64,000 nt of DNA, taken from NCBI RefSeq assembly GCF_019974135.1, contig NZ_AP025017.1, positions 1,550,001 to 1,614,000 on the forward strand, written 5' to 3'. Positions 35,075 to 53,693 of the stretch are shown here, piece after piece. The notes under the pieces are model-generated. The model saw only the letters and a list, made by a program, of their open reading frames with translations. It did no database searches and was not told where the DNA came from. Source of the stretch: Actinomyces capricornis. GTDB lineage: Bacteria > Actinomycetota > Actinomycetes > Actinomycetales > Actinomycetaceae. The position numbers and the translations under genes are program-made. Positions within the stretch are counted from its first letter, which is position 1, and each line of letters begins with the position of its first letter.

Positions 35075-35075
35075 A

Positions 35076-35097: not shown

Positions 35098-35178
35098 CCT
35101 CCGTACCACCCCGCCCACCGCGCGGGGCCCACCCCTCCGGTCCGCTCCCGGCCCGGACCCCCAGGAAGGACACACATC

Positions 35179-36882
35179 ATGTCTGACAAGCCCACTGCCC
35201 TCTCGCTGACCACAGCCGTGCGCCTGGCACACCCCACCGCCTCGCGCCGCCTCTTCCTGGGCGCGGGCATGAGCGCCCTGGGCTCCCTGGCCCTGGCCGC
35301 CTGCGGAGCGAACTCGGCGACCTCGTCGAGCTCGGGAACCGCCACCGCCGGGGGCACCCTGAGGATCCTGACCTCGGAGACCGACCTCAACTGGGACCCG
35401 GCCAAGAGCCAGTCCATGCCCATGACCTCCCTGGCCCTGGTCCACCGCCGGCTGACCACCTGGAGCCTGGCCCCGGGCAAGCCCGTCGAGCTGGTGCCCG
35501 ACCTGGCCACCGACACCGGCACCGTCAGCTCCGACGGGCTGAGCTGGACCTTCACCCTCAAGAAGGGCCTGGTCCTGTCCGACGGCACCCCCCTGACCTC
35601 GGCCCACATCAAGCACGGGGTGGAGCGCTCCTTCGCCCCGGCCCTGGCCGGCGGGCTGACCTACCACAAGGCCCTCCTGGCCGGGGCCCAGGACTACGAG
35701 GGCCCCTATGAGGGCAAGCACCTGGACTCCATCCAGACCCCGGACGACTCCACCATCGTCTTCCAGCTCACCCGCGCCTTCGGGGACTGGCCCTGGATCG
35801 TGGCCCAGGGTGCCTTCGCCCCGGTACCCGAGGGCGACGACCCCGCCACCTACACCGCCTCGCCCATCGCCTCAGGGCCCTACGTCGTGGCCCAGGCCGC
35901 CCAGGGCTCCTCGGTGACCCTGGAGCGCAACCCCCACTGGTCGGCGGACACCGACCAGGTGCGCCTGGCCCTGCCCGACTCCATCGTCTTCGAGCTCAGC
36001 CAGGACGAGTCCACCGCCTCCCAGCGGCTCATCGCCGACTCCGGGCAGGACCGCACCGCCTTCGGTGCCGACCGGGTCTCGGCCGCCCAGCTCGCCCAGG
36101 TCACCGCCAACCCGGCCGCCAAGGATCGCCTGGCCACCACCCCCGACGGCGGCCCCGCCACCTACCTGGCGATCAATGTCGAGCGGGTCACCGATCCGCA
36201 GGTCCGCCAGGCCATCGCCCACGCCGTGGACAAGGCGGCGGTCGTGGCCGCCCTGGGCGGGGAGCTGGGGGCCGTGAGCGCCTCGACCCTCATCACCCCG
36301 GGCATCCCGGGCCGCCAGGACTACGACCTCTACCCCACCGACCCGGGCAAGGCGGCCTCCCTGCTCGAAGGCAAGGAGGTCCCCTCCCTGGTCCTGCTCA
36401 CCCAGAACTCCGCCGCCCACCAGGCCGTGGCCCAGGCGGTGGAGCAGTCCCTGAAGGAGGCCGGGCTGAGCGTGACCATCGACCCCCAGACCTCCGAGGC
36501 CTTCAACGAGCGCGCCACCCAGGGCGACGGCTCCACCTACGACCTGGCCATCGCCTCGTGGAACCCCGACTACCCCTCGGCCAACGCCAATATCCAGCCT
36601 CTGTTCGCCTCCTCCGAGATCGGCAAGGGCGGGCACAACATCTCCCGCTACTCCAACGAGAAGGTCGATGCCGCCATCGCCGAGGCCGCCGCGAACCTGG
36701 ACACCGAGGCGGCCCGCAGCCAGTGGGCCGAGCTGGACCGCGCCATCGCCCAGGACGTCCCCGTGGTGCCCCTGGCCTTCCGGCGCAACTCCTTCCTGCG
36801 CGGCTCCGGGGTCCAGGGCTTCTTCGTGGAGTCCTACCCCGCCTACCCCAGCTACCAGGTCGTGGGGGTGAGCGGCTCATGA
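35179..36882 (+). CDS. peptide-type ABC transporter substrate-binding lipoprotein (DppA-like)
   Basis: A 567-residue extracellular binding protein of the SBP_bac_5 family. The N-terminus has RRLFLGAGMSALGSLALAAC: a hydrophobic signal ending in lipobox LAAC. The family is seen in GGTLRILTSETDLNWDPAKS, GLSWTFTLKKGLVLSDGTPL, IASGPYVVAQAAQGSSVTLERNP (within 20-residue pieces), VRQAIAHAVDKAAVV and LAIASWNPDYPSANANIQPL. AGGAAGGA lies before the ATG. The ligand cannot be read off; the cysteine attenuator upstream suggests a cysteine-containing compound such as a peptide or glutathione. It overlaps the ATPase gene by ATGA. Confidence 0.9.
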   Translation: MSDKPTALSLTTAVRLAHPTASRRLFLGAGMSALGSLALAACGANSATSSSSGTATAGGTLRILTSETDLNWDPAKSQSMPMTSLALVHRRLTTWSLAPGKPVELVPDLATDTGTVSSDGLSWTFTLKKGLVLSDGTPLTSAHIKHGVERSFAPALAGGLTYHKALLAGAQDYEGPYEGKHLDSIQTPDDSTIVFQLTRAFGDWPWIVAQGAFAPVPEGDDPATYTASPIASGPYVVAQAAQGSSVTLERNPHWSADTDQVRLALPDSIVFELSQDESTASQRLIADSGQDRTAFGADRVSAAQLAQVTANPAAKDRLATTPDGGPATYLAINVERVTDPQVRQAIAHAVDKAAVVAALGGELGAVSASTLITPGIPGRQDYDLYPTDPGKAASLLEGKEVPSLVLLTQNSAAHQAVAQAVEQSLKEAGLSVTIDPQTSEAFNERATQGDGSTYDLAIASWNPDYPSANANIQPLFASSEIGKGGHNISRYSNEKVDAAIAEAAANLDTEAARSQWAELDRAIAQDVPVVPLAFRRNSFLRGSGVQGFFVESYPAYPSYQVVGVSGS

Positions 36883-38750
36883 CCGGGGCCCAGGAGCCCG
36901 GCGCCCATGAGGCGGGCCCCCAGGGGCCCGATGCGCAGGAGACCGGCGGGGTGCTGCGCCTGCGCGGCCTCGGGGTCGCCTTCGCCGGCGCCGTCGACCC
37001 CGCCTCGGCCGGGATCGACCTGGACCTGCGCGCCGGCACGGTCCTGGCGCTGGTGGGGGAATCGGGCTCGGGCAAGTCGGTGACCGCCCTGGGCGCCCTG
37101 GGGCTCCTGCCGCCCACTGCCCGCGTCACCGGCTCGGCCCGCCTCGACGGCGTCGAACTGGTGGGCGCCCCACGGCGGGTGCTCGATGACGTGCGCGGGC
37201 GCCTGGTGGGCACCATCTTCCAGGAGCCCACCACCGCCCTCAATCCGCTGGAGACCATCGCCTTCCAGATCGGTGAGGCGGTGCGGGCCCACCCCGGTGC
37301 GGGGGCCCAGGCGCGGAGGCGCCGTGATTCCGGCGAACCCGGCGGCTCCGGCGAACCCCGCAGCGCTCGCGGCCCGCTGTGGGGCTGGAGGAGGCGCGGG
37401 GGAGCCCGCGTGCAGGACCGTGTCCTGGAGCTGCTGGAGCGGGTGGGCCTGGGAGGCGGTGAGGATCTGGAGCGGATCGCCGACTCCTACCCCCACCAGC
37501 TCTCCGGGGGCCAGCTCCAGCGCGCCTGCATCGCCCTGGCCCTGGCCTGCCAGCCCCCGGTCCTCATCGCCGATGAGCCCACCACCGCCCTGGATGTCAC
37601 CGTCCAGGCAGGGATCCTGGACCTGCTGCGCTCCCTGACCGAGGAGGGCCTGGCCGTCCTGCTCATCACCCACGACATGGCGGTGGTCGCCGACATCGCC
37701 GACGAGGTGGCCGTCATGCGCGCCGGGCATATCGTCGAGCGCGGTCCCGTGGCGCAGATCTTCTCCCGCCCGCAGCATCCCTACACCCGCCAGCTCCTGG
37801 CGGCCGTGCCGCGCCTGGACTCCCTGCGCCAGGAGGACCCCTTCGAGGCTGCGGCCTGCGCGAGGAGCGCCGCCCCCGCCGGGCCCGGTGCCGTCCAGGG
37901 CACGGAGAGCGCGGGCGGGGGCGCGGGGAGCCAGGAGCCGGTGGTGGCGATCCGAGACCTGGAGGTGGTCTACGGCGGCGCGCGGCGCCCGGTGCGCGCC
38001 GTGCAGGGCGTGAGCCTGAGCATCGCCCCCGGCGAGGTGCTGGGCATGGTGGGGGAGTCCGGCTCGGGCAAGTCCACCATCGCCGGCACGCTCACCGGCC
38101 TGGTGCCCATCTCCTCGGGCTCGGTGCGCGTATGCGGGGTGGAGATCGCCGGGGCCCGGCGTCGCGACCTGCTGCCCGTGCGCCGCGCCACCGGCGTCGT
38201 CTACCAGAACCCGGCCTCCAGCCTCAATCCCCGGCGCACGGTGGGGGCCTCCATCGCCGAGCCGCTGGTGGTGCACGGCCAGGCCGATGCCGCCGCCCGG
38301 CAGGCGCGGGTGCGCGAGCTGCTGGAGGCGGTGCGGCTGCCCGCCGCTATGGCCCAGCGCTACCCCCACGAGATGAGCGGCGGGCAGCGCCAACGGGTCG
38401 CCATCGCCCGGGCCCTGGCCCTGGAACCGCGCCTGGTCATCGCCGATGAGCCCACCAGCGCCCTGGACGTCTCGGTCCAGGCAGTGGTCCTGGACCTCCT
38501 GGGCTCGCTCCAGGCCGAGCTGGGCTTCGCCTGCCTCTTCGTCTCCCACGACCTGGCGGTGGTGGACTCCATCGCCTCGCGCACCGTGGTGCTCAGTGGC
38601 GGGCGCCTGGTGGAGGAGGGGCCCACTCGGCATGTGCTGGCCGACCCCCAGCAGGACTACACCCGGCGCCTGGTGGCCGCCGTGCCCGTGCCCGACCCCG
38701 CCCTCCAGGCCGCCCGGCGACGACGGCGCCAGGGCTCGCGCGCCGCCTGA
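36879..38750 (+). CDS. fused double ATP-binding protein of the peptide-type importer (DppD-DppF-like)
   Basis: A 623-residue protein with two ABC ATPase domains in one chain. Domain 1 has Walker A GESGSGKS at 60-67, signature [15 protein letters not shown] and Walker [14 protein letters not shown]. Domain 2 has Walker A GESGSGKS at 392-399, signature [15 protein letters not shown] and [14 protein letters not shown]. Each is followed by the HPYTRxLLAAVP-like oligopeptide-transporter tail ([34 protein letters not shown]). An Arg/Gly-rich insertion of ~35 residues interrupts domain 1. Two NBDs in one chain match the two separate permeases. It ends the four-gene operon. Confidence 0.93.
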
Positions 38751-39190: not shown

Positions 39191-40204
39191 ATGGCTCGCA
39201 GCCTCCCTTTCATAGAGATCATCGAGTGCCTCGACCCCCACCCCCAGTGGGTGCTGTGGCGCTTCCCCGATGAGGACGGGCGCATCAAGTCCGGCGCCCA
39301 GCTGGTGGTGCGCGAGAACCAGGCGGCCCTGCTGCTCTCACGGGGCCAGGCCTCCATGGTCTACGGCCCGGGCACCCACACCCTGCCCACCCACAACATC
39401 CCGGTCCTGTCGGACCTGGCGGGCTGGAAGTACGGATTCGCCTCCCCCCACATCTACGACGTCTTCTACGTCGCGGTCCGTCAGTTCGTCGACCTCAAGT
39501 GGGGAACGCCCGCGCCGGTGATGATGAGCGACCCCCAGTTCGGGCAGGTGCGGGTGCGGGCCTTCGGCTCCTACTCCGCGCGCGTGACCGACGTCGCCCG
39601 CTTCTTCCGCGAGTACGCCGGGGCCTACCCCATCCTGTCCATCCGGGACCTGGAGGTCCAGCTGCGCGACTACATCGCCGCGAAGTTCGGGGAGATCCTG
39701 GCCACCTCCGGGATCTCGGTGCGCGACGTCGCCGCCAACCTCTCGGCCGTCAACGCCAGGCTGGCCCCGGCCATCACCCCCTACTTCGAGGACCTGGGCG
39801 TGTCCATCACCCAATTCACCATCGCCTCGGTGACCCTGCCCGATGAGGTCAACAAGTACTACGACACCGTCACCTCGATGAACATGGTCGGGGATATGCA
39901 GCGCTTCCAGCAGTTCCAGACGGCCGCGGCCATCGGGGACCCCTCCACCGCGGTGGGCGCCGGGACGCAGGCCGGAATGGCCATGGGCATGATGATGGGC
40001 CAGATGCCCCAGGGCGCCGCCGCCGCGCAGGGGTACCCGGCGGCCCCGCCGATGCCGGCCCCCGCCGCCCCCGCGCCCGCCGCCCCGGCCGCCGGTGAGG
40101 ACCCGGTGGCCAGGCTCCAGCGGCTCAAGCAGCTGGCCGAGGCCGGGCTCATCACCGAGGACGAGTACGCGGCCAAGAAGGCCCAGATCCTGGAGGCCTT
40201 CTGA
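39191..40204 (+). CDS. SPFH-domain protein with C-terminal SHOCT motif (YdjI-like)
   Basis: A 337-residue protein. The start MARSLPFIEIIECLDPHPQW has AGGAG eight bases upstream. Residues 1-270 are an SPFH (stomatin/prohibitin/flotillin-like) domain of the virion-core/YdjI subtype, with SGAQLVVRENQAALLLSRGQ, VRAFGSYSARVTDVARFF and ISVRDVAANLSAVNARLAP. A Met/Gly- then Ala/Pro-rich linker leads to the SHOCT helix pair (RLQRLKQLAEAGLITEDEY). No membrane helix is present. In Bacillus subtilis YdjI helps bring PspA to the membrane together with the zinc-ribbon protein YdjG. Here it leads an eight-gene run, with a one-base overlap (TGATG) to a zinc-ribbon gene. Confidence 0.85.
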   Translation: MARSLPFIEIIECLDPHPQWVLWRFPDEDGRIKSGAQLVVRENQAALLLSRGQASMVYGPGTHTLPTHNIPVLSDLAGWKYGFASPHIYDVFYVAVRQFVDLKWGTPAPVMMSDPQFGQVRVRAFGSYSARVTDVARFFREYAGAYPILSIRDLEVQLRDYIAAKFGEILATSGISVRDVAANLSAVNARLAPAITPYFEDLGVSITQFTIASVTLPDEVNKYYDTVTSMNMVGDMQRFQQFQTAAAIGDPSTAVGAGTQAGMAMGMMMGQMPQGAAAAQGYPAAPPMPAPAAPAPAAPAAGEDPVARLQRLKQLAEAGLITEDEYAAKKAQILEAF

Positions 40205-40440
40205 TGGGCGAGTCCCTCATCGAGCGGATGCGCCGCCGCGCCCAGCAGCAGGGGCAGGCCTCGACCGCCTCCTCCATCCAGTACGCCCGCGACGAGCTGG
40301 GAGCCACGGTGCGCACCTGCCCCGGCTGCGGCGCGGGGCGCCAGGAGCCCTACGACCTGGCCGAGTGCGTCTACTGCGGCTACGTCTTCGTCACCGCGGG
40401 GCGCCAGGAGGGCGATCCCGGACAGTCCTACCGCTCCTAG
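40204..40440 (+). CDS. small zinc-ribbon protein
   Basis: A 78-residue protein. Its basic N-terminal helix (SLIERMRRRAQQQGQA) is followed by one zinc ribbon, CPGCG near residue 39 and CVYCGYVF about 15 residues on, then a short polar tail. The ATG shares one base with the SPFH stop, so the two are made together. It has no enzyme motif; a structural or adaptor role beside the SPFH protein is inference. Confidence 0.8.
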   Translation: MGESLIERMRRRAQQQGQASTASSIQYARDELGATVRTCPGCGAGRQEPYDLAECVYCGYVFVTAGRQEGDPGQSYRS

Positions 40441-40613
40441 GAGCTGCGCCGACGCGCAGACGCCTCGGCCCCCCGCCCCGGCGCCGCGCGGCACCGGCCC
40501 CCGGTACCGGCCTGGCCGGCCCGCTCCGCCCCACCATCCCAGACCACCCTCCCCAGACGATCACCCAGACCACATCCTGCTTTTCCAGCACTCCCCACCA
40601 TGAGGAGACACAC

Positions 40614-41675
40614 ATGGCCCACTACACCCACTACGAGCAGCAGCTCCAGGCCCTGACCCAGCGCCTGGAGGTCTACATGGACCGCATGGAGGCCCGCGCC
40701 CGCGAGTTCGCCGCCGAGGCCGCCCCCACCGCCGCCGAGCTCCAGGCCAAGGACCCGGCCTCGGTCGGCTCCTTCCGCATGGAGGTCCAGCGCCAGATCA
40801 TGTTCCTTCACACCAAGGCCGAGCGCGCCTACGAGCAGCACTTCGGCCCCTATGAGGACCTGGACGATGACGATGTGTCCATGGATGAGCACGCCCTGCT
40901 CCAGACCTACTGGGAGCAGGCCGAGCACAGGGTTGACGACTTCGAGGACCGCCTGGAGCGGGTCGTCGACGGCATCTTCGCCCAGGGCGAGGCCGCCCAG
41001 GCCAAGGGCGGCTGGGACCAGGCCATCGCCGACTGGCGCCAGGCCCAGCAGACCTTCACCTGCAGCCAGTGCGGCGCCCCCGTGGCCCTGCCCGAGCTCT
41101 ACCACGTGGCCGTCTACGTCACCTGCCAGGGCTGCGGCTCGCGCGTGACCTTCCAGCCCTCCCAGGCCATGCAGGCCGCCCCGATGGTGGCCGAGGACCT
41201 GGCCAAGGCCGAGTGCCACGAGGAGTGGGAGCGCTCCGAGCAGGACTGGAGCGACATCGGCGGTATGCAGTTCGTCCACTACGTCTACTACGTCACCTCC
41301 CACCACCGCGTCATGAGCCGGATGCTGCCCTTCTACGCTCGCACCCAGGCCGAGGCCCTGCGCCGCGACATCCAGCAGGCCTGGACGATCATGACCGAGC
41401 AGGGCCAGCCCGACAGCGTGACCCCCCAGTACTACGAGATGGAGTACCTCAACGCCGTGGGCAATCTCGGCACCAGCATCATGGCGATGACCCGGTCCGG
41501 CCACACCGAGCACCGCGAGCTGCTCCTGCAGACCGTCCGGGACATCATGCGCCCCGGCGACGCCCTGGCCCAGTCCATCCTCGAGGGCACCTTCACCGAG
41601 GCCATGTGGGATCAGCGCATCGAGGCCGCCAACCGCCTTCCCGCCGAGTTCCCCAGCCCCCTGGACTCCATCTGA
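40614..41675 (+). CDS. uncharacterised protein with internal zinc ribbon
   Basis: A 353-residue soluble protein I cannot name. It starts MAHYTHYEQQLQALTQRLEV after GAGGAGA. The N-terminal ~140 residues are charged and helical (EDLDDDDVSMDEHALLQTYW), probably coiled coil. A zinc ribbon of two CxxC pairs follows (CSQCGAPV and CQGCGSRV, near residues 145 and 167). The C-terminal half is helical, rich in His/Tyr/Gln (FVHYVYYVTSHHRVMSRM). Its place between SPFH/zinc-ribbon and DUF6620-like genes suggests it belongs to the same complex. Confidence 0.78.
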   Translation: MAHYTHYEQQLQALTQRLEVYMDRMEARAREFAAEAAPTAAELQAKDPASVGSFRMEVQRQIMFLHTKAERAYEQHFGPYEDLDDDDVSMDEHALLQTYWEQAEHRVDDFEDRLERVVDGIFAQGEAAQAKGGWDQAIADWRQAQQTFTCSQCGAPVALPELYHVAVYVTCQGCGSRVTFQPSQAMQAAPMVAEDLAKAECHEEWERSEQDWSDIGGMQFVHYVYYVTSHHRVMSRMLPFYARTQAEALRRDIQQAWTIMTEQGQPDSVTPQYYEMEYLNAVGNLGTSIMAMTRSGHTEHRELLLQTVRDIMRPGDALAQSILEGTFTEAMWDQRIEAANRLPAEFPSPLDSI

Positions 41676-41732
41676 CCCCCTGCGGGACACCCTCCACCGC
41701 CTCCCACCGAACCTCCCGAAAGGACCCAGACC

Positions 41733-43133
41733 ATGGCCGGATTCCTCCAGAGGGCCAAGAACGCCACGAAGAACGCAGCCAAGCAGACGGTGGCCAACGC
41801 CGGCGCCAACGCCCTGTCCAGCGCCATCAACCAGGGCACCGCCGCCCTGGGCCTCGAGACCAACATCCAGGTCAAGGCCCCCGATGTCACCTCCGGCTCC
41901 TCGGGCGGCTACGACCCCGACACCTACTACCGGGTCGACGTCGCCCACGGCTTCTCCCGCCCCATGGACCACGGACTGCCCGGCGATGAGATCGCCTTCC
42001 TCCAGTACCCCCAGGCCCCCGCCACGCTGCCCCCCGGCGCCGCCGACTACGCCCGGGCCTGGTGGCAGCCCTGGGGCAGCCTGCTCGAGGGGCACATCGA
42101 CATCGCCCGCGCCCTGGAGGCCGGCGACGCCGCCGGCGCCCAGCAGCTGCTCTACCGCTGGGAGCAGGGCATCAGTCAGGCCCGCACCGCGGCCCACCAG
42201 CTCGGCGACTTCAACGGGGCGCGCACCCTGTCGGTGGCCGTCGACGACGTCAACGAGCACTTCGAGAACGTGGCGGACGCGCTGCGCGAGTACATGAACT
42301 GCCGCTCCCTGGGCCAGGACCCCTCGGGGGCCGTGGAATCCGCCCAGGCCTGCATCGTCAACATGCATGTGGCCCTCAACCGGCCCGTGGCCGCCTTCTT
42401 CGCCGACCCCTCCGGCGCTGCCACCGCCCAGGCGGAGGCCGAGGCCTACGCCGGAATGCCGGGTATGGCCGGGATGCCGGGTATGGCCGGAATGCCGGGG
42501 ATGCCCGGCATGATGCCGGGAGCCGGCGCCGACACCTCCGGCCCGGAGTTCGCCCCCGTCCAGGGGGTCTCCTTCCACGACTATGTGGCCGGCTCCCAGC
42601 GCATCCAGGAGGGGGTCTCCGCCGACGTCGTGGCCAAGGTCCTGGGCGTGGAGCGCCCCATGTGGGACGCGGCCGCCAACGAGTGGCTCACGCGAATGAC
42701 CCAGACCCACCCCATGAGCGTGGGAATGCAGTACACCCCGCTGTCCCAGACCCCCCACCCCAGGCTCACCCCCGAGGCCTGCGCCGCCGCGGGCGGGGGC
42801 CCCTCCGCGCTGCCGGGAGGGGTCGACAACTCCGGGCGCCTGCGCACCGACATGGACTTCTACATCGAGGCCGCCGCCGCGGGCCAGGCGGCCGCCGAGG
42901 CGGGCATCGACGCCGGGGGCTACCTGGAGTCCAACTACGGGGTGACCGTCATGCAGGTCTCCAACGCCGGCGTCGCCTGGATGTCCAACCCGGCCAACAT
43001 CTCGCGCATCACCACCCTCCAGCAGGCCAAGGCCAAGGAGATCTTCACCTCCATCACCGGCTACTCCAACGACGTCGCCCCCGGCGCCCTGCCCGACGGC
43101 GTGGAGGACATCGCCGCCGATATCGAGTTCTGA
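41733..43133 (+). CDS. DUF6620-like protein with GMPGMAGMPG repeats
   Basis: A 466-residue protein. The N-terminal part starts MAGFLQRAKNATKNAAKQTV and includes YRVDVAHGFSRPMDHGLPG and a helical bundle to about residue 230. A Met/Gly/Pro repeat (AGMPGMAGMPGMAGMPGMPG) separates it from a C-terminal part with VSFHDYVAGSQRIQEGVSAD, MWDAAANEWLTRMTQTHPMS and YLESNYGVTVMQVSNAGV, which resembles DUF6620. No signal peptide or membrane helix. It lies 57 bases after the zinc-ribbon protein and ahead of two YbjN-like genes. Function unknown. Confidence 0.75.
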   Translation: MAGFLQRAKNATKNAAKQTVANAGANALSSAINQGTAALGLETNIQVKAPDVTSGSSGGYDPDTYYRVDVAHGFSRPMDHGLPGDEIAFLQYPQAPATLPPGAADYARAWWQPWGSLLEGHIDIARALEAGDAAGAQQLLYRWEQGISQARTAAHQLGDFNGARTLSVAVDDVNEHFENVADALREYMNCRSLGQDPSGAVESAQACIVNMHVALNRPVAAFFADPSGAATAQAEAEAYAGMPGMAGMPGMAGMPGMPGMMPGAGADTSGPEFAPVQGVSFHDYVAGSQRIQEGVSADVVAKVLGVERPMWDAAANEWLTRMTQTHPMSVGMQYTPLSQTPHPRLTPEACAAAGGGPSALPGGVDNSGRLRTDMDFYIEAAAAGQAAAEAGIDAGGYLESNYGVTVMQVSNAGVAWMSNPANISRITTLQQAKAKEIFTSITGYSNDVAPGALPDGVEDIAADIEF

Positions 43134-43248
43134 TCCCGCGCCGTCGGCCGGTGCACGGCCGGCGGCGCCCCGCAGGGCGGGACACCACCCCTGGCAGGCC
43201 GGCGCCGTCGTCGGCCATCATGGACACCACTGAACGGAAGGTGCGCGT

Positions 43249-43698
43249 ATGAGCACACAACCAGCCGTGACCCTGGAGCGGGTCGAGTCCTGGCTCACGG
43301 GCGAGGACCTGGTCTTCGAGCATGATGACGAGGGCGACATCATGGTCGGCTTCGAGAACTGCTACTTCGCCTTCTACATGCAGGCCGAGGGCGAGCTGCT
43401 GCTGGCGCGCGCCTACTGGCGCGGCCGCTTCCCGGTCGAGCAGATGCCCGAGCTGCACGACCTGGCCGACTCCCGCCACCAGAAGACCTACGGCCCGCGC
43501 CTGTCCGTCCTGACCTCGCCGGGCGAGGAGGGGCAGGACAGCGCCATCCTGGGCACCCAGATGGTCGAGTACGTGGCCCAGGGCCGCAGCGACGAGCAGC
43601 TGGCGGCCTTCATGGACCTGGTGATGAGGATGAACATGCGCCTGTTCGCCGATATCGAGGAGCGCTACCCGGCGCTCGTGACCTGGGGGGATGACTGA
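43249..43698 (+). CDS. YbjN-like domain protein 1
   Basis: A 149-residue acidic protein with the YbjN / type III secretion chaperone-like alpha-beta fold: VTLERVESWLTGEDLVFEHD, GFENCYFAFYMQ, LLLARAYWRGRFP, and the C-terminal VEYVAQGRSDEQLAAFMDLV. YbjN proteins have no enzyme motif and are thought to act as chaperones or scaffolds. It overlaps the next, related gene by TGATG, and the two may form a heterodimer. Confidence 0.75.
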   Translation: MSTQPAVTLERVESWLTGEDLVFEHDDEGDIMVGFENCYFAFYMQAEGELLLARAYWRGRFPVEQMPELHDLADSRHQKTYGPRLSVLTSPGEEGQDSAILGTQMVEYVAQGRSDEQLAAFMDLVMRMNMRLFADIEERYPALVTWGDD

Positions 43699-44246
43699 TG
43701 GCCTGGTGGAACAAGCCCGCGGGGAGCCTGACCCCCTCGGTGAGTGTGGACCGGGTGGCCGCCTGGTTCACCTCCCACTCCTACACCTATGAGCTCGACC
43801 GCGACGAGGGCGCCGTCTACTCGGGCTTCGACGGGGTGTCCTACATGTTCAAGGTCGCCGGCGACCCGCTCTTCGTCATCCACGGCCGCTACCTGACCAC
43901 CCTGCCCACCGATGAGCAGACCGTGGAGCGGGTGCGCGCGGTGGCCCGCCGGGTGGCCGACTCCCGGATCATGCCCGCCGTCTACCTCGTCATCGACGAG
44001 CACGGGCTGGGGCTGCACGCGGAGGCCACCTCCAGCACGGGGGCCGGGCTCAATGACGAGCAGTTCGCCGGGGTCATGGACTTCCTCATCGGCGGGGTCG
44101 ACGGCGCCATCACCGAGATCCTCGCCGAGCTGGATCTGCCCTCGCCCGCGCAGGCCCTGGATGCCCCCGCCCCGGCTCCCGAGCCGGGGCAGGCCGAGGG
44201 CGCAGGGGCCCAGGACCCGGAGGGCCCGGCCGCCGGGGACGCCTGA
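43698..44246 (+). CDS. YbjN-like domain protein 2
   Basis: A 182-residue relative of the preceding protein: VSVDRVAAWFTSHSYTYELD, YSGFDGVSYMFKVAGDPLFV, IHGRYLTTLPTDEQTVERV and DEQFAGVMDFLIGGVDGAI follow the same plan. The C-terminal ~35 residues are a Pro/Ala/Gly tail. Its ATG shares one base with the upstream stop. After its stop come 252 gene-free bases before the Hsp90-like gene, in which I see no clear promoter or hairpin. Confidence 0.75.
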   Translation: MAWWNKPAGSLTPSVSVDRVAAWFTSHSYTYELDRDEGAVYSGFDGVSYMFKVAGDPLFVIHGRYLTTLPTDEQTVERVRAVARRVADSRIMPAVYLVIDEHGLGLHAEATSSTGAGLNDEQFAGVMDFLIGGVDGAITEILAELDLPSPAQALDAPAPAPEPGQAEGAGAQDPEGPAAGDA

Positions 44247-44498
44247 GGCGTGCCGGCCCGGCGCTGCGAGAGCCCCACCCGGCGCGGTGGCGGCTCCCGC
44301 AGCGGTCCCGGCGACTCGTGACCACGCGGGATCGGTGAGGCGGATGGTGCTGCCGTGGCGCTTGCGCGGGCTGGGAACTGTCATGAGGCTTCCAGTCAAG
44401 CGGCGGATACTGACCGGGTTGCCCTGGAGCCCGTCTGTGGTCGAATCTAGGACTCTGCGCTGTTGCACATCATGACAGGAAGGAACCCCCACACACCT

Positions 44499-46289
44499 AT
44501 GGCGACGTTCCAGGTTGACCTGCGCGGGATGGTGGACCTCCTCTCGCGCAACCTCTACTCGGGTCCGCGCGTCTATGTGCGCGAGCTGCTGCAGAACACC
44601 GTGGATGCTATTGCCGCGCGTCGCCAGCAGGAGCCCGACTGCCCCGCTCGGGTGACCCTCACCATCGAGGGCTCCAGCCTGAGCTGCCGGGACACCGGCG
44701 TGGGCCTGACCCTCCAGGAGGCCTCCAGCCTGCTGTCCACCATCGGCGCCTCCTCCAAGCGCGACGAGCTGGGCCTGTCGCGGGGGGACTACCTGGGCCA
44801 GTTCGGCATCGGCATGCTCTCCTGCTTCATGGTCTCCGGGGAGATCCTCGTCCGCTCCCGCTCGGCCCGCCAGGCCGGCGCCCCCACCGTTGAGTGGCGG
44901 GGGCGCACTGATGGCACCTACGAGGTGCGCGCCCTGGAGCCCCACGAGCCGGGCAACCTGGACAGTCCGGGCACCAGCGTGGAGATCATGGGCCTGCCGG
45001 GGGAGCCCTGGCTCCAGGCCGACACCGTGCGGGCCCTGGTCGATGAGTTCGGCGCCCTGCTGCCCATCGACGTCGAGGTGCGCAGTACCGGCACCTCGAC
45101 CCGCCACGCCCACCAGGACGCCCCCTGGGAGCTGACCCGCCGCGAGCAGCACCGCTGGTGCGCCGAGAACCTGGGCGGGGAGCCCTTCGACATCATCGGC
45201 CTGGAGGTGCCCGCCGCGGGCCTCAAGGGCCTGGCCGCCGTCGTCACCGCCGCCCACCCCACGGCCACCTCCCACCACACCGCCTACGTCAAGCGGATGC
45301 TCGTCTCGCGCTCGGCCGAGGGCCTGGCCCCCGAATGGGCCTACTTCGTGCGCGTCGTGGCCGACTCCAGCCACCTGCGACTGACCGCCTCGCGCGAGCA
45401 GCTCATGGACGACGACCTGCGCGCCGAGACCCGTGAGGCCATCGGGGCGGCGGTGCGCTCCTGGATGGAGCGCCTGGCCCGCACCGCCCCGGGGCGCTTC
45501 GCCGAGTTCGTGGGGGCCCATGCGGTGGGCCTGCGCTCGGTGGCGGTCACCGACCCGGACATGCTCGAGCTCGTCGTGCGCCACGCCCCGGTGGAGACCA
45601 CGCAGGGGGCCCGCACCCTGGCCCAGCTGGCCGCCGGCGGCGAGAAGGTGCGCTTCACCCGCACCGTGGACCAGTACCGCGCCCTGGCCGATGTGGCCGG
45701 CTCCCAGGGCATCGTCCTGGTCAATGCCGGCTACGCCTACGAGGAGGAGGTCATCTCCGCCTTCCTGGCGCGCACCGACCTGCTCGACCCGGCCGCCGAT
45801 ATCGCCCTGGTGGACCCCGGCGAGCTCCTCGACGCCTTCTCCCCCTGCTCCCCGGCGGAGGAGGCCGAGGCCATGGACATCCTCATGATGGCCTCCCGGG
45901 CCATTGATCCCGAGGACTGCGAGGTGGTCATGCGCCGCTTCGAGCCCGCCACCCTGCCCGCGCTCTACCTGCCCGACCCCGACCTGGCCGGCAGGGTGGC
46001 GGCGCGCACCTCCCGCAAGGCCGCCACGGGCGTGTGGTCGCAGGTGCTGGGGGTCACCGACCCCTTCGCCGGCTCCCATGTGCCCCGGCTCGTGCTCAAC
46101 CGCACCAACCCCCTGGTGGTGCGCCTGGTGACGGCGCGCGCCGACGACGCCGTGGTCACCAGCACCCTGCGGGGGCTCTACATCCAGTGCCTCCTGCTGG
46201 GGCGCCAGCCCCTGGGCCCCAAGGAGCGCTCCTGGGCCGCCGAGACCCTCGGCTCCCTGCTCGACTCTGCCCTGCCGGACTCGATATGA
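44499..46289 (+). CDS. Hsp90-family (HtpG-like) GHKL ATPase
   Basis: A 596-residue Hsp90-like chaperone ATPase. The N-terminal Bergerat fold is complete: catalytic E29 and N33 in RELLQNTVDA, D65-x-G67-x-G69 in DTGVGLT, and the lid GQFGIGMLS at 100-107. The middle domain includes YVKRMLVSRSAEGLAPEWAY and SSHLRLTASREQLMDD, with the ATP-sensing arginines expected there. The C-terminal part differs from standard HtpG. The start MATFQVDLRGM was taken as the fold begins at once; an ATG nine codons earlier is possible. It lies 79 bases before the repeat protein. A partner chaperone for this module is inference. Confidence 0.88.
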   Translation: MATFQVDLRGMVDLLSRNLYSGPRVYVRELLQNTVDAIAARRQQEPDCPARVTLTIEGSSLSCRDTGVGLTLQEASSLLSTIGASSKRDELGLSRGDYLGQFGIGMLSCFMVSGEILVRSRSARQAGAPTVEWRGRTDGTYEVRALEPHEPGNLDSPGTSVEIMGLPGEPWLQADTVRALVDEFGALLPIDVEVRSTGTSTRHAHQDAPWELTRREQHRWCAENLGGEPFDIIGLEVPAAGLKGLAAVVTAAHPTATSHHTAYVKRMLVSRSAEGLAPEWAYFVRVVADSSHLRLTASREQLMDDDLRAETREAIGAAVRSWMERLARTAPGRFAEFVGAHAVGLRSVAVTDPDMLELVVRHAPVETTQGARTLAQLAAGGEKVRFTRTVDQYRALADVAGSQGIVLVNAGYAYEEEVISAFLARTDLLDPAADIALVDPGELLDAFSPCSPAEEAEAMDILMMASRAIDPEDCEVVMRRFEPATLPALYLPDPDLAGRVAARTSRKAATGVWSQVLGVTDPFAGSHVPRLVLNRTNPLVVRLVTARADDAVVTSTLRGLYIQCLLLGRQPLGPKERSWAAETLGSLLDSALPDSI

Positions 46290-46368
46290 GCCCGCCAGCG
46301 ATCCGGCGGCCCCGGCCCGCCACGACTTTCAGGACCACCTCGGCCCCATTCATCGGAAGGACCCACCC

Positions 46369-49368
46369 ATGACCACCCGCGAAGACATCCTCGAGCGCCT
46401 GGCCTACGCCGATGCCCTGAGCTACGGCCCCAAGGCCTCCGCACTCATCGCCGAGGCCGTCACCTGGGCCGATGCGCTGGGCGAGGAGGATCTGCAGGTG
46501 GTCACCCGTCTGGCGCTGACCGACGGCTACCAGCACGGCAACGAGGAGTGGAAGGCACTGGCGCCCTTCGTGTGGAACCTCGCCCGCTACAAGGAGCGCC
46601 CCGACCTGTTCGACGCCGACCAGGTGCGCACCCTGCACTGGCACTTCAAGTGGTCCGTGGCGGTGGCGGCGGCCAACCCGAAGGTGGCCAAGGATCAGGT
46701 GCGCCAGTTGGAGGCCAGCCTGGAGGAGTTCTACCGCTCCGAGGGGGCCTCCATGCACGTGGTCCACGGCGAGCGGGCCTCGGTGGCCGGACTGCTGGGC
46801 CTGGAGGAGGAGGCCGCCGAGGAGCTGGCCGCCTGGCGGGCCACGCCCCGCGATGAGAACTCCGACTGCGAGGGCTGCGACCCCATGCGCCAGGTCGCCT
46901 TTGCCTACCGCACCGAGGACTGGGAGTTGGCCGTGGGCACGGCCGTGCCGATCCTGCGCGAGGATGTGGGGTGCCGGGTCCAGCCCCAGATGATGCAGTC
47001 CCTGGTGCTGCTGCCCCTGCTGGCCTCGGGGCGGCCCAAGGCCGCCTGGGATGCGCACCTGCGCTCCTACCGCGAGATCCGCCGCCACCCCAATGCCCTG
47101 GTCTCCATCGGCTACCACCTGGAGTACCTGGCCCTGGTGGGCAAGATCGACCGCGGCCTGGACATCCTGCGCCGCCACATCTCCTGGCTGGACCAGGCCG
47201 AGTCCGCCCACGCCCTGCTGGGGGCCCTGCGGGGCATGAGCCTGGTGCTGCGGGAGGCCGAGCGCTTCGGCCGCGGCGAGGAGGCCCTGGGCGTCGTCGT
47301 GCCCGCCGAGACCCTGTGGGCACCCCAGCCCACCCTGGCGGCCGAGACGACGATCTCGCAGGCCTACGCCGAGTTCTCCGGCTGGGCGCGCCGCCTGGCC
47401 GCCTCCTTTGACGCCCGCAACGGCAACACCACCATCTCCGACCACCTGGAGCGCAGCCTGGCACGGGCCTCCTTCGCCGAGCACGCCGACGCCGGGACCC
47501 GGGTCGAGCTGCTGGAGACCCCCGAGGAGCTGCCCGAGGCCGTCCCCACCTGCCAGCCGGTGGAGGCCGGCGCCGGGGAGGAGTTCGGCTTCTCCTCCGC
47601 CCTGGGCATGGTCTCCCTGGGCCAGGAGGAGGAGCCCGGGCAGACTGCGGGCCCCGGGCCGCTGGAGGAGGCCGATGAGCCCTTCCCGCTGGTGGACCTC
47701 ACCCGTCCCGCCCCGCTGGCCGACGCCGACGACGCCGTGCGCCGCTACGCCCGCACCCTGCGCCGGGTGGGGGTGGACACCGAGCACCTCTACATCGTGG
47801 ACCAGGCGGCCGCCCACAGCCTGCTGCCCGAGCCCGGCCGCGCCCCCGACGGCCTGGAGATCGAGGCCTCCCTGCTGCGCGCCAACGCCTACTCCCGGCG
47901 CACCGAGTACGACCGGGCCATCGAGGAGCGCCTGCGCATCCGCTCGATGCGCGAGAGCCAGGTGGGGGTGCTGGGCGCCGTCGAGATCGACATCGCCAAC
48001 CTCGATGATGAGATGACCGCCGACCGCCAGTCCGGCCGCGACGCCACCCAGGAGCGGGCGGCGCGACTGGAGCGGGCCGAGGAGATGCTGCGCAGCGTGG
48101 CCTCGCGCGTCGATGCGCTCATCGGCCCGGAGAGGTCCCCCGGCGCCTCCCTGGAGTCCGGCTCGCCCTCCGCGGAGGCCTGCGTGCTGGCCGCCGACGC
48201 CCTGGGCAACATCATCAGCGTGCTCACCGAGCTGGAGGCCAAGGACCAGGCCCTGGAGGCGGTGGCCCTCATGGAGCGGGTGTGGGGGCGCATCCCCATG
48301 GAGATGCACGCCGAGAACATGCGCGACGCGGTGGACATGGCGCGCGCCGAGGTGCTGGCCGAGTGCGGAGACGTGTTCGAGGGCTGCCAGCTGGCCGAGG
48401 AGGTCATGCGCCGCCACGAGCCGATGTCCCTGCTCGTGGCCGGGCGCGGCCGCCGCCTGCTGGGCGTGGCCTCCATGCAGGTCGAGCAGTTCGAGGAGGC
48501 GGTCAAGCAGTTCCGCGAGCACGCCAACATGATGATGGCCGCGGGCCTGCCCTTCACGAGCATCGGCTCCCTGCTCAACCTGGGCCAGGCCCTGGGGGTG
48601 GGGGAGCGCTACCTGGAGAGCGCCGAGGTGCTGGAGTCCGCGCTCTCGCGCGCCGAGCGGCTCCAGGTGCCCGGCATGATCCTGTTCATCCACCAGTTCC
48701 TGGCCCAGGTGCATATGGGCCTGGGGGAGCATGCCGGGGTCCTGGAGCACTCCCTGGCGGCCGCCGAGGGCCTGGAGGCCGCGGGGCGGGTGGCCGCGGC
48801 CAAGGAGGCCTACACCAATGCCGCCATGGCGGCGGGCAACATGGACGACAATGTCCAGTCCTCGGCGCTGTTCCGCCGCGCTGCCGCCCTGGAGGACACC
48901 AGCACCGATCAGGGGAGGCTCGACCGCGGCCGCATGCTGCGCCGGGCGGCCCGGGCGCTGGTGGACGACTTCACGGTGGCCATGGCCCGCTCGCGCCTGG
49001 ACGACGCCGTGGAGATCATGGAGGAGTCCCGAGCGGCCTTCATCGAGGTGGAGGACGGCGGGAACTACTCCAGCGCCTGGGAGATGGGGGACTGGCATGA
49101 CGACATGTCCTGGATCCTGTGGCGCACGGATGAGAACTCCCTGGCGGCTGAGCACTGCGAGGCGGCCTATGAGGGCTACATGAGCAAGGACGACCGCGAG
49201 TCGGCCGCCCGGGCGCTGTGCATGCTGGCCCGCCTGCATGCCGAGCGCGAGGAGAGGGATGAGGCCCTGGCCGCCTGTGCGCGGGTGCGCGAGCTGCTGG
49301 CCCACCCGCGCTGGCAGAACCACGACGCCCTGTCCTTCGTGGCCTCCATCGAGGAGAGCTTCTCCTGA
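46369..49368 (+). CDS. large helical repeat (TPR-like) protein
   Basis: A 999-residue protein of tandem helical hairpins. TPR-like units include MQVEQFEEAVKQFREHANMM, SIGSLLNLGQALGVGERYLE, QFLAQVHMGLGEHAGVLEHS and ARLHAEREERDEALAACARV; the N-terminal half has weaker repeats. An acidic, Pro-rich segment (about residues 385-445) divides it. There is no signal peptide or enzyme motif. TPR proteins often dock to Hsp90, and this gene follows the Hsp90-like gene closely, so co-chaperone or scaffold is a fair inference. A strong terminator lies right after its stop. Confidence 0.8.
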   Translation: MTTREDILERLAYADALSYGPKASALIAEAVTWADALGEEDLQVVTRLALTDGYQHGNEEWKALAPFVWNLARYKERPDLFDADQVRTLHWHFKWSVAVAAANPKVAKDQVRQLEASLEEFYRSEGASMHVVHGERASVAGLLGLEEEAAEELAAWRATPRDENSDCEGCDPMRQVAFAYRTEDWELAVGTAVPILREDVGCRVQPQMMQSLVLLPLLASGRPKAAWDAHLRSYREIRRHPNALVSIGYHLEYLALVGKIDRGLDILRRHISWLDQAESAHALLGALRGMSLVLREAERFGRGEEALGVVVPAETLWAPQPTLAAETTISQAYAEFSGWARRLAASFDARNGNTTISDHLERSLARASFAEHADAGTRVELLETPEELPEAVPTCQPVEAGAGEEFGFSSALGMVSLGQEEEPGQTAGPGPLEEADEPFPLVDLTRPAPLADADDAVRRYARTLRRVGVDTEHLYIVDQAAAHSLLPEPGRAPDGLEIEASLLRANAYSRRTEYDRAIEERLRIRSMRESQVGVLGAVEIDIANLDDEMTADRQSGRDATQERAARLERAEEMLRSVASRVDALIGPERSPGASLESGSPSAEACVLAADALGNIISVLTELEAKDQALEAVALMERVWGRIPMEMHAENMRDAVDMARAEVLAECGDVFEGCQLAEEVMRRHEPMSLLVAGRGRRLLGVASMQVEQFEEAVKQFREHANMMMAAGLPFTSIGSLLNLGQALGVGERYLESAEVLESALSRAERLQVPGMILFIHQFLAQVHMGLGEHAGVLEHSLAAAEGLEAAGRVAAAKEAYTNAAMAAGNMDDNVQSSALFRRAAALEDTSTDQGRLDRGRMLRRAARALVDDFTVAMARSRLDDAVEIMEESRAAFIEVEDGGNYSSAWEMGDWHDDMSWILWRTDENSLAAEHCEAAYEGYMSKDDRESAARALCMLARLHAEREERDEALAACARVRELLAHPRWQNHDALSFVASIEESFS

Positions 49369-49376
49369 CCCCTGGC

Positions 49377-49406
49377 GGGGCGCGGGGCCTTTCGGCCTCG
49401 TGCCCC
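49377..49406 (+). terminator. hairpin ending the SPFH-Hsp90-TPR module
   Basis: Arms 49377-49389 and 49394-49406 (GGGGCGCGGGGCC and GGCCTCGTGCCCC) pair at 11-12 of 13 positions, one a G-T wobble, around the loop TTTC. It begins nine bases after the stop of the repeat protein. It marks the end of the eight-gene unit. Confidence 0.7.
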
Positions 49407-49516
49407 GGGATCCGGGGGTTCGCCCCCTGTGAATCTGCTGACTGCCGGGGCGGGGCGGGGGATGATGGGCCGTGAGCAACAATGACGCTCCTGACCGACC
49501 TCCGGGAGGCTCCCCC

Positions 49517-50498: not shown

Positions 50499-51968
50499 TC
50501 ACTGGCCCAGGCTCACGCCCCGGTCGCTCATGAAGGGCTCGGGGTCGGTGGGCCGGCCGTTGAGGTGGACCTCGAAATGGAGGTGGCAGCCGGTGGAGTT
50601 CCCGGTGGAGCCGACCGCTGCGATGCGCTGGCCCGCGGTGACGCTCTGCCCGGCCCGCGCATGGATGCCCGAGGCCTCCATGTGGAGGTAGGCGGTGGTC
50701 ACGCCCCCGCCGTGGTCGATCTCGACGGCGCCGGTCCCGTCGTCGTACAGGCCGGCGAAGGTGACCGTGCCTGCCGCGGCGGCGTGGATGGGGCCGCCGC
50801 ATCCGCCGCCGGCCAGGTCCGTGCCGGCGTGGAGCCGGTTGACGCCGGTGACCGGGTTGACCCGCATGCCGTAGGGGCTGGTGCGGGGGCCGGCGGCCGG
50901 CGCGGCCCACCCGCCCGGGCCGACGGCGACCGGGGCGCCGGAGGCCGTGGAGGCGCACTGCGCCGTCGGGGCCCCGGCGGTGGAGGGCGGTTGGGTGGCC
51001 CGGGTCATCCGGCGCACGCTCCAGGAGCGAGCCTGCCAGGAGGAGTCCAGATCCACCTCCTTGACCACATCGCCGGTATTGGGCGCATGGATCATTCGCT
51101 GGTCGCCCGCGTAGATGCCGATGTGGTCGTAGGAGTCGGGGCCCGCGGGGAAGAAGATGACGTCCCCCGGGCTCATCTCATCCCAGGGGGCGCTCGCACC
51201 CGGCCCGGTGTAGACCTCCTGGCCCTGCGCCCCCTGCTGGGCGGAGGTGCGCTCCAGCTCGATCCCGAGCTGGGAGAAGACGTAGTGGACCAGTCCGGAG
51301 CAGTCGAACCCGCTGGGGCCCGCCCCGCCCCAGGCGTAGGGGGCGCCCTCCTGGGCCCGGGCGAGATCAGCGGCGCTGCTCGTCTCGGCGGCCGAGGTAG
51401 TGGAGGCGGTGACGGCGCCGCCGTCGAGGGCCGCGACGATGGCCTCGGCGGCGGGCCAGGAGGACTCGTAGTGGTAGGGGTCGGAGTTGGCCTGGATCCG
51501 GTGCGCTACGAGGGTCGGCTCCATGGTGTCGCGCTCGGTGATCCTCACCAGTGCCTGGAGGAACAGCGAGGCGGACTGGTAGGGGTCCATGCGCTGCTCC
51601 AGGCTGCCCCAGGTCTCCCGCTGCTGGAACAGCCCGCGGCTGTCAGGACCGGCGGCATCCCCATGGTCCAGGTTGCGCAGCCCGGACTCCCCGATGGCGG
51701 TCATCACCGCGATGGTCTGGTCCCGTCGCGTCAGGCCCATATCGGCCGCCGCCCTCATGATGGTGGCCGCATGGGCGAGCTGGGTGGCATCCCACCCCGG
51801 CACGGAGGCCCCCGCGACGGCGCGCTCATCGATGAGGACCGCGCGGGCCCCCGCGCCCGCGGTGCAGTCCTCCTCCTGCCCGCCCAGGAGCAGGAGGAGG
51901 GCGAGGACGGGCAGGAGCGCCAGGAGCAGCACCAGTGCCAGGACGAGTGGCAGCCCGCCCGGTCTCAC
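50499..51968 (-). CDS. secreted three-domain cell-wall hydrolase of conjugation type (lysozyme-like, NlpC/P60, M23)
   Basis: A 489-residue exported wall hydrolase. An N-terminal hydrophobic segment (LVLALVLLLALLPVLALLLL) anchors or exports it. A lysozyme-like part follows (AVMTAIGESGLRNLDHGD, SRGLFQQRETWG). The NlpC/P60 endopeptidase has C223 in GFDCSGLVHYVF and the histidine in SYDHIGIYAG. An M23 metallopeptidase ends it, with RLHAGTDLAG and CHLHFEVHLNG as zinc ligands. Such proteins open the peptidoglycan for type IV secretion channels. Its GTG overlaps the stop of the lipoprotein gene upstream by GTGA. Confidence 0.9.
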   Translation of the reverse strand: MRPGGLPLVLALVLLLALLPVLALLLLLGGQEEDCTAGAGARAVLIDERAVAGASVPGWDATQLAHAATIMRAAADMGLTRRDQTIAVMTAIGESGLRNLDHGDAAGPDSRGLFQQRETWGSLEQRMDPYQSASLFLQALVRITERDTMEPTLVAHRIQANSDPYHYESSWPAAEAIVAALDGGAVTASTTSAAETSSAADLARAQEGAPYAWGGAGPSGFDCSGLVHYVFSQLGIELERTSAQQGAQGQEVYTGPGASAPWDEMSPGDVIFFPAGPDSYDHIGIYAGDQRMIHAPNTGDVVKEVDLDSSWQARSWSVRRMTRATQPPSTAGAPTAQCASTASGAPVAVGPGGWAAPAAGPRTSPYGMRVNPVTGVNRLHAGTDLAGGGCGGPIHAAAAGTVTFAGLYDDGTGAVEIDHGGGVTTAYLHMEASGIHARAGQSVTAGQRIAAVGSTGNSTGCHLHFEVHLNGRPTDPEPFMSDRGVSLGQ

Positions 51969-52801: not shown

Positions 52802-53425
52802 GTGACCACCAATCCCTGGGTGACTCGGCGGCCCGCCTCCCTCCCAACCCCGCCTCCCTCACTACCGGCCCCGTGCCCGCTGACGGGGCCTGGCACTCCT
52901 CAGCCCGGCATCGACCAGCCGGCCAGGGGCGCCCTGCCTCTCGTGACCAGGCCTGAGCGGCCGGTCCTGTGGGTGCTGGGTGCGCACGGAGGGGCGGGGG
53001 AGTCGCTCCTGTCCTCGCTCCAGGAGGGGTGGATGGCTGCCGGGCACTCCTGGCCCGCGGAGTCCTCGGCGCCGGTGGTCCTGACCGCCCGGACCGGTTT
53101 CGAGGGGCTCACGCGCGCCCAGGCGGTGCTGACGCAGTGGGCCAGTGGGGCGGTGGGCGACCCCCGCCTGCTGGGCCTCATCCTCCTGGCGGATGCCCCG
53201 GGTCGTCGTCCCAAAGCGCTGAGGGACCTGGGGCGCATCGTCGGCGGGGGCGCCCCGCGGGTGTGGGAGGTGCCATGGGTGGAGGCCTGGCGCCTGGGTC
53301 AGGGCCTTGCCCACGACCGGCTCCCACGTCAGGCCCGCCGCATGATCGATGACCTGTCCCGCCTGGTGTCCGATAGGACGACCATCCCCCACCACACCGA
53401 GGAGTGCGCCCATGAGCACCTGTGA
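52802..53425 (+). CDS. DUF6668 family protein of the secretion cluster
   Basis: A 207-residue protein. After a Pro/Thr/Ser-rich N-terminus comes RPVLWVLGAHGGAGESLLSS, which looks like the start of a MinD/ParA-type nucleotide fold with a GAHGGAGES loop in place of GKGGVGKT; the lysine is missing, so ATP hydrolysis is doubtful. LGLILLADAPGRRPKALRDL follows as the second core strand. The GTG at 52802 has AAGGAG nine bases before it; the ATG at 52694 lies in the control region and was rejected. It overlaps the next small gene by 14 bases. Confidence 0.75.
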   Translation: MTTNPWVTRRPASLPTPPPSLPAPCPLTGPGTPQPGIDQPARGALPLVTRPERPVLWVLGAHGGAGESLLSSLQEGWMAAGHSWPAESSAPVVLTARTGFEGLTRAQAVLTQWASGAVGDPRLLGLILLADAPGRRPKALRDLGRIVGGGAPRVWEVPWVEAWRLGQGLAHDRLPRQARRMIDDLSRLVSDRTTIPHHTEECAHEHL

Positions 53426-53693
53426 TCCGCTGCTGAGGCTGGCCGTGCTGGCTGTTCCCGACCCGGACCCCATTCAGCCCCCGGGGACTGAGGGCTTCAC
53501 CGCCGTCATGGGGTGGGCGAAGTGGGTGGCGCTGGCCGTGTGCGTCCTGGGCCTGTTCGCCGCAGGCGCCCTCATGGCGATCCAGTCGCGCCGCGGTGAG
53601 GGCGGTGAGCATGTCGGCAAGATCGTCATGGCCCTGGGAGGGGTCGTCGTCATCTCGGCCGCGGCGGCCCTGGTCGGCTTCCTGGCCGGTTGA
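53412..53693 (+). CDS. small two-helix membrane protein (TrbC/VirB2 pilin-like)
   Basis: A 93-residue protein. A short leader with LLRLAVLAVPDPDPIQPPG could be a cleavable signal. Two membrane helices follow: VALAVCVLGLFAAGALMAI and IVMALGGVVVISAAAALVG, separated by a charged loop (QSRRGEGGEHVGK). This is the build of TrbC/VirB2 pilins in T4SS clusters, and its place just before a VirB8-like and a VirB6-like gene agrees. Sequence similarity to known pilins is low. Confidence 0.7.
   Translation: MSTCDPLLRLAVLAVPDPDPIQPPGTEGFTAVMGWAKWVALAVCVLGLFAAGALMAIQSRRGEGGEHVGKIVMALGGVVVISAAAALVGFLAG

Follow-up and report, generated by a model that had tools for sequence, protein, structure and literature searches.

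Eukaryotic Hsp90 works with TPR co-chaperones, and in eukaryotes TPR proteins are docking sites for EEVD tails. For bacteria, Press et al. (2013) stated that obligate Hsp90 co-chaperones had not been identified, and a 2014 paper said the same of co-chaperones of Escherichia coli HtpG. A direct association of Mycobacterium tuberculosis HtpG with DnaJ2 was then reported in 2023 (PMC10269695). Actinobacteria with two HtpG copies were noted by Chen et al. (2006), and a length of 615 residues is given there for Streptomyces coelicolor HTPG2 (passages of PMC1525184). Passages of two further papers describe Band-7 proteins and CesT/Tir-like chaperones as partners of PspA (PMC11237479; PMC8581546) and a zinc-ribbon partner for the YdjI operon (PMC11237479); neither "Hsp90" nor "YbjN" occurs in the main text of PMC11237479. 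The AmyR structure revealed a T3S-chaperone-like fold for the YbjN family, whose members act via protein-protein contacts, according to passages of PMC5398634.

Organization of the locus

The window is the whole 64-kb stretch of DNA that was analyzed, taken from a 3.17-Mb single-contig genome. The nearest named relative among the matches listed is Actinomyces bowdenii, whose Hsp90 is 98% identical. The first-pass annotation reported eight genes on one strand with several one-base overlaps and a closing terminator. All eight genes indeed lie on the + strand, between positions 39191 and 49368.

39191–40204 (+): SPFH-SHOCT protein; Pfam Band_7_1 (230 bits) and C-terminal SHOCT (31.2 bits), above curated cut-off
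40204–40440 (+): ZR1, 78 residues, zinc-ribbon-like, with CPGC and CVYC; one-base overlap with the SPFH gene
40614–41675 (+): ZR2, 353 residues, zinc-ribbon-like core with two CxxC
41733–43133 (+): DUF6620 protein; Pfam, 229.9 bits, above curated cut-off
43104–43130 (+): C-terminal tail of the DUF6620 protein, EDIAADIEF, a conserved ending
43249–43698 (+): YbjN1; PF10722, 32.6 bits (gathering cut-off 22)
43698–44246 (+): YbjN2; PF10722, 26.1 bits (cut-off 22); one-base overlap with YbjN1
44499–46289 (+): Hsp90 family protein; NCBIfam PRK14083 (NF010683), 606.6 bits (cut-off 455)
46369–49368 (+): TPR protein, 999 residues; TPR repeats by profile and model
46369–47463 (+): N-terminal domain of the TPR protein (N-domain, residues 1–365), by residue conservation
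46867–46974 (+): cysteine triad of the N-domain, C167, C170 and C202 (first to last codon)
47725–49359 (+): C-terminal TPR superhelix (residues 453–997), by profile and model
49368–49419 (+): GC-rich hairpin after the last gene; −48.8 kcal/mol, z −3.97, no T-run

The family names hold as well, being supported by scores above curated cut-offs; ZR1 and ZR2 are named from their paired CxxC motifs only, and neither matches a Pfam zinc-ribbon model above cut-off. One-base overlaps are present at 40204 and 43698, so that two junctions, rather than several, overlap, and gaps of 173 bp and 252 bp lie 5' of ZR2 and Hsp90, respectively. In place of the terminator there is the GC hairpin without a T-run, and a pattern scan gave no terminators and no promoters. 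Transmembrane-like segments are absent from all eight proteins, with a 19-residue hydropathy mean that never exceeds 1.57.

The Hsp90 family protein

The locus Hsp90 is the sole Hsp90 match in its own genome, and in the PDB it matches E. coli HtpG and TRAP1 best. Residues E29, N33, D36 and D65, the GQFGIG loop (G100–G105) and R299 do not vary across 21 aligned Hsp90 sequences; we take them to have the catalytic roles assigned by homology through yeast Hsp82 numbering. With these residues invariant, the protein should be an active ATPase. An MEEVD-type end is absent (the C-terminus is LLDSALPDSI), and the C-terminal ends are not conserved among the 21 sequences.

The ATPase residues and lid loop are shared with the bacterial Hsp90 proteins treated in passages of PMC1525184, and the length is near that of HTPG2, which presumably belongs to PRK14083. 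In contrast to HtpG, the locus protein scores far below the cut-off of the canonical HtpG equivalog (NF003555, 125.9 bits for the protein and 121.9 bits for the genome match, against 371), and a TPR gene is its fixed partner, a feature that those passages do not mention. A canonical HtpG elsewhere in the genus was ruled out, since none of the 49 genus genomes has a match above the cut-off; 13 weaker matches sit at the PRK14083 gene.

Conservation of the Hsp90-TPR gene pair

The pairing of the Hsp90 and TPR genes is the strongest result of the analysis. Genomes were scanned with the 21-sequence Hsp90 alignment and the best 80 named loci were kept, a sample biased to high similarity. A TPR gene was found by profile at position +1 of Hsp90 in 73 of the 74 callable loci and under all 30 genus labels, which were taken from record titles and comprise 26 named genera and four MAG placeholders. 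Six of the 80 loci (L158, L159, L161, L164, L199 and L214) were dropped because the gene caller had missed Hsp90, and in the single exception (L189) the TPR gene or frame is in pieces. A BLAST control on the callable loci gave 28 labels for the widest family at +1 and no more than three at any of the other positions between −4 and +5. When the profile was applied to open frames instead, 78 of the 80 loci had a TPR frame within 600 bp downstream of Hsp90; at L161 it lies 1.3 kb on, and L214 has no TPR frame. In 40 of 78 cases the chosen TPR start overlaps the Hsp90 stop by 4 bp, a count that leans towards overlap because starts were picked by closeness.

A profile of the N-domain was applied to a wider set of 116 loci (80 named, 20 order-level, 12 Streptomyces-type, and four plasmid or phage records). 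The N-domain lies directly downstream of Hsp90 in 110 of these and within ~1.3 kb or upstream in four more (L102, L106, L112 and L161), and no N-domain was found near Hsp90 in L155 and L214. The pair extends to another phylum: in Paenibacillus cellulosilyticus (Bacillota), an Hsp90 of 31.5% identity is followed by a 354-residue frame that corresponds to the N-domain alone, with the three cysteines present by eye. Hsp90 matches also occur on three Streptomyces plasmid records, and both of the two inspected hold the whole pair. The first-pass annotation had suggested a dedicated chaperone with a possible TPR co-chaperone, and the gene pairing supports this. Source names of the partner relatives include "hypothetical protein", "tetratricopeptide repeat protein", "kinase" and "ATP-dependent transcriptional regulator".

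Two minor observations were made in the same records. In two order-level genomes, those of L102 and L106, the gene after Hsp90 encodes a 370-residue protein, and two consecutive large TPR genes come next. The Hsp90-TPR pair is also present in a 6.6-kb record titled "Bacteriophage sp." (MT837560.1, L287), which is marked unverified and is probably a bacterial contig.

The TPR protein and its cysteine triad

Genuine TPR repeats span residues ~453–997 of the 999-residue protein, by profile and model. A fold comparison covering mainly residues 495–999 relates the array to LGN, RapI, NprR and AfsR, which are signaling proteins. Conservation is concentrated in the N-domain, with 33 columns conserved at 90% or more in residues 1–365 versus six in residues 451–999. 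Besides the cysteine triad, the N-domain bears an RNG motif.

In the wider set, the triad is complete in 105 of the 110 Hsp90-linked N-domains. It could not be read in L174 (cut by a contig end) and L205 (split over two frames). The triad is not strictly required for pairing because L111, L188 and L224 lack it beside Hsp90, and these three loci rule it out as a strict mark of Hsp90 pairing. Within the genus, all 14 Hsp90-adjacent copies have a complete triad, one of them beside an Hsp90 fragment. Among the 22 copies without Hsp90, 12 keep the triad and 10 have lost it, in a count that leaves out broken remnants in G052. The 12 copies that keep it form one Hsp90-less clade with ZR2 (ZR2 was seen in 11; the twelfth is cut). 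The 10 that have lost it are those of G178, G152, G155, G157, G153, G162, G019 and G188 and the first copies of G159 and G163; two of the three cysteines are retained in G178 and G152. G159 and G163 hold both kinds of copy, with the triad only in the Hsp90-linked one. Five changes of the Hsp90 label are needed on the genus tree, at least three of them forced. The triad was thus lost in about four Hsp90-less lineages of the genus and in none with Hsp90, a suggestive pattern that comprises few events and is not strict.

Some partner proteins carry ~400–520 extra residues between the N-domain and the TPR array (L084:5161–9111, L085:5009–8734, L089:3466–7881, L249 and L250); for two of these insert-bearing proteins, a Pfam search gave weak TPR matches only. 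The window's genome also encodes a 589-residue N-domain paralog at ~2.785 Mb of contig G000:C1 (L255:7432–9201), between rpsA-like and coaE-like genes. This paralog lacks the cysteine triad and has a match in 34 of the 49 genus genomes.

Gene content of the genomic slot

Of the 49 genus genomes searched, 32 have the long TPR gene in a common slot, and the neighborhood was read in all of them. The slot is flanked in 32/32 by an ABC transporter set (as at 29335–32797 of the window), a dipeptide-type set (as at 33066–38750) or a GST-like gene (as at 49517). All eight genes are contiguous in only three of the 49 genomes: that of the window (G000), A. bowdenii (G151) and A. slackii (G175). Other genomes have subsets or split sets, which rules out a single eight-gene system as a general statement and does not support the earlier description of one self-contained unit. 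That description had been staked on the genes being kept together in other genomes, which fails for the set of eight and holds for the Hsp90-TPR pair.

Hsp90 is present in 13 of the 32 slot genomes, including G194 with an intact TPR gene and an Hsp90 fragment only, and also in G190; in all 14 the TPR gene is directly downstream. The other 19 slot genomes have the TPR gene without Hsp90. Off the slot, TPR relatives were found in G157 (~480–550 residues, mainly N-domain) and in G190, which has a distant YbjN-Hsp90-TPR trio. Of the 31 assessable genomes (G181 is cut by a contig end), 25 have YbjN genes next to the TPR unit, whether Hsp90 is there or not, in agreement with the earlier placement of the YbjN pair in the Hsp90/TPR neighborhood. 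ZR2 is in the slot in 16 of 31. Wherever members are present, their order is kept: ZR2, tail gene, YbjN1, YbjN2, Hsp90, TPR. Tandem units, YbjN-YbjN-TPR and YbjN-YbjN-Hsp90-TPR, are found in G163 (A. massiliensis) and G159; G153, G162, G019 and G188 have no member but the TPR gene, which carries a large insert and in G188 is split.

A sequence search of the PDB with YbjN1 returned only three plant receptors at chance level (E of 0.2 or worse). In G158, a 288-residue YbjN-family protein with two matched stretches (L074:9403–10269) lies near the YbjN1-YbjN2 pair.

The SPFH-ZR1-ZR2-DUF6620 cassette and its tail

The SPFH-ZR1-ZR2-DUF6620 set is a separable cassette. Strong SPFH relatives occur in five of the 49 genus genomes, the window's own included, and weak matches alone in seven more; a sequence search found no PDB relatives for SPFH. 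G158 and G184 have the SPFH-ZR2-DUF6620 set at another place, beyond transporter genes. The SPFH gene of G184 is broken and ZR1 was not found there; in G158, one small frame separates ZR2 from the tail gene. Cysteines C150, C153, C171 and C174 of ZR2 are invariant in seven sequences, including that of the window. The predicted model of the DUF6620 protein has helical regions and a disordered tail (pLDDT 70.5, pTM 0.42).

A C-terminal tail of the form (I/L)A(A/D/S)D(I/V)(E/D/Q/V)F is present in all 20 ZR2-linked loci inspected. The Hsp90-less clade lacks the DUF6620 domain in the 11 genomes that could be read; the protein in its place is of low complexity (151–158 residues in the three that were called) and ends in TVADIA(A/S)DIEF. 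In G161 and G194, half of the domain is replaced by a linker and the end is RDIAADIEF. A 171-residue form in G112 and G022, which belong to another family, ends in LADDIDF or LADDVDF, the protein of G158 and G184 ends in IADDIVF, and a set of seven relatives also keeps the tail. The nine-residue tail therefore outlives its own protein domain.

The search pattern, which was written after the tails had been seen, gave 18 matches among 18,634 frames, all of them the tail gene; G158 and G184 fall outside it and were added by eye to reach 20/20. As controls, the strict pattern matched one of 25,079 frames from the best 80 named loci, the A. bowdenii copy, and the window's DUF6620 protein alone among 4,980 frames of at least 50 residues from ~0.5 Mb of its own genome. 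Within these two sets of frames, the single matches rule out the tail as a general C-terminal motif. The tail may resemble SSB tails; no SSB gene was recognized in the stretches read.

ZR2 is the only partner next to the tail gene in all 20 loci, which makes it the first candidate receptor, with the TPR groove second. The tail at the DUF6620 position probably docks on ZR2; docking in the TPR groove is less likely. Since the adjacent ZR2 and tail genes of G112 and G022 have no SPFH, YbjN or TPR gene alongside, the link between the SPFH set and the Hsp90 unit is one of neighborhood in one clade.

Comparison with PspA-linked and other described systems

PspA, which the first-pass annotation had listed as absent, is indeed missing from the locus; a copy at G000:C1:1046861, ~0.54 Mb away, rules out its absence from the organism, and PspA is present in all 49 genus genomes. 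With the YdjI-YdjG-YdjH-PspA system of Bacillus subtilis, in passages of PMC8581546, the locus shares an SPFH gene with a zinc-ribbon neighbor (by CxxC pairs only). It differs in that pspA is outside the operon, there is no membrane-integral partner, and ZR2, DUF6620 and the tail are added. The PspA-Band-7-CesT/Tir operons in passages of PMC11237479 also have Band-7 and CesT-like chaperones in one neighborhood, whereas PspA is not in the operon here. The Pfam YbjN family is common to AmyR (passages of PMC5398634) and the locus, which has two tandem genes near the TPR gene.

The closest parallels to the pair itself are two. Like M. tuberculosis HtpG-DnaJ2, it is a bacterial Hsp90 with a partner; that association is reported as direct and involves a J-protein of the DnaK system (PMC10269695), whereas the partner here is a TPR protein encoded beside Hsp90. 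Since a direct association has been reported there, the full novelty of the present pair is weakened. The combination of an Hsp90 with a TPR-repeat protein is also that of the eukaryotic system, from which the locus differs in that Hsp90 has no MEEVD end and conservation in the partner falls on a separate N-domain rather than on the TPR array. No description of the Hsp90-TPR pairing was found among the open-access titles and openings of abstracts listed.

Proposed function and alternative explanations

We consider it fairly probable that the core of the locus is an Hsp90 with a dedicated TPR co-chaperone and YbjN helpers, joined in one clade to an SPFH platform. From the gene pairing, the residue conservation, the constancy of the tail and the predicted folds, we infer binding, clients and a platform role as follows. 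The PRK14083-branch Hsp90 and the TPR protein encoded at its side would act together. The N-domain, with its cysteine triad and RNG motif, would be the part tied to Hsp90, and the variable C-terminal TPR superhelix may hold a client or peptide; as ATP drives Hsp90 closed, this cargo would be remodeled or loaded. The two YbjN proteins may serve as holding chaperones for the TPR protein or its client. The SPFH-ZR1-ZR2-DUF6620 set would form a membrane-associated platform beside the Hsp90 unit in the clade that has both. Counted against this scheme, the 19 of 32 genomes without Hsp90 indicate that the TPR protein can work without it, and the TPR protein could itself be a client.

The latter possibility, in which the large TPR protein is the regulator that carries out the function and Hsp90, with YbjN, folds or activates it, is the most serious competitor, though a clearly less probable one. 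Persistence of the TPR protein in those 19 genomes is expected of the working part, its array resembles signaling proteins, and the YbjN pair stays with it. However, the Paenibacillus partner is a 354-residue N-domain alone and conservation is highest in the N-domain, both of which better fit a dedicated Hsp90-facing domain, and Pfam finds no output domain in the TPR protein. Somewhat less probable again is an envelope-stress platform of the YdjI/PspA type, in which the SPFH and zinc-ribbon proteins recruit the distantly encoded PspA and the chaperones assemble the platform; for the Hsp90-TPR part it is compatible with the co-chaperone reading. The Bacillus-like zinc-ribbon neighbor of SPFH, the described partnership of Band-7 and CesT/Tir-like proteins with PspA (passages of PMC11237479 and PMC8581546) and the presence of PspA in 49/49 genomes are consistent with it. 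Against this, PspA is encoded ~0.54 Mb off and is universal in the genus, whereas strong SPFH relatives occur in 5/49; the locus has no membrane-integral YdjG/H-like protein, and Hsp90-TPR is conserved without SPFH or PspA components.

Variable content in one genomic slot, with TPR inserts and tandem duplicates, would suit a conflict system, against phages or otherwise, based on a chaperone switch, as would the pair on two Streptomyces plasmids and a weak match in PADLOC between the Hsp90 ATPase region and TmtA (30.2 bits; 2023 library, in which the matches were weak and partial). We regard this as improbable, since the only PADLOC match among the other seven proteins is TPR to Cas1_IIIa (E 0.01), no effector domain was found, and the pair spans 30 genus labels in the best 80 loci without other conserved neighbors. 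Least probable, and very unlikely in our judgment, is an old operon shared by Hsp90 and TPR with no functional tie between them, the other genes lying next to them by chance. Operons can persist by inertia and the SPFH set is separable, but the surroundings differ between genera while the pair stays, and the pair recurs in another phylum.

The co-chaperone reading has a stronger form, which we put forward tentatively and think rather doubtful: that the widespread PRK14083 branch of bacterial Hsp90 has a dedicated, perhaps obligate, TPR co-chaperone that partners Hsp90 through its cysteine-triad N-domain, and that in Actinomyces the IA.DI.F docking tag on an SPFH platform parallels EEVD. The occurrence of the pair in 26 named actinobacterial genera and four MAG groups, with one case in Bacillota, provides a concrete co-chaperone candidate, and the locus offers a way to ask whether some bacterial Hsp90s have dedicated co-chaperones. 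The tail, with its two candidate receptors, adds a second point of entry.

Other features of the window

Downstream of the locus, four larger proteins in a row (260, 566, 473 and 507 residues; 53412–59247) have no Pfam match, and an NlpC/P60-M23 peptidoglycan hydrolase is encoded nearby at 50499–51932. The row may belong to an integrative or conjugative element. Between 58000 and 64000, few genes were called and the GC content falls from ~73% to 60%.
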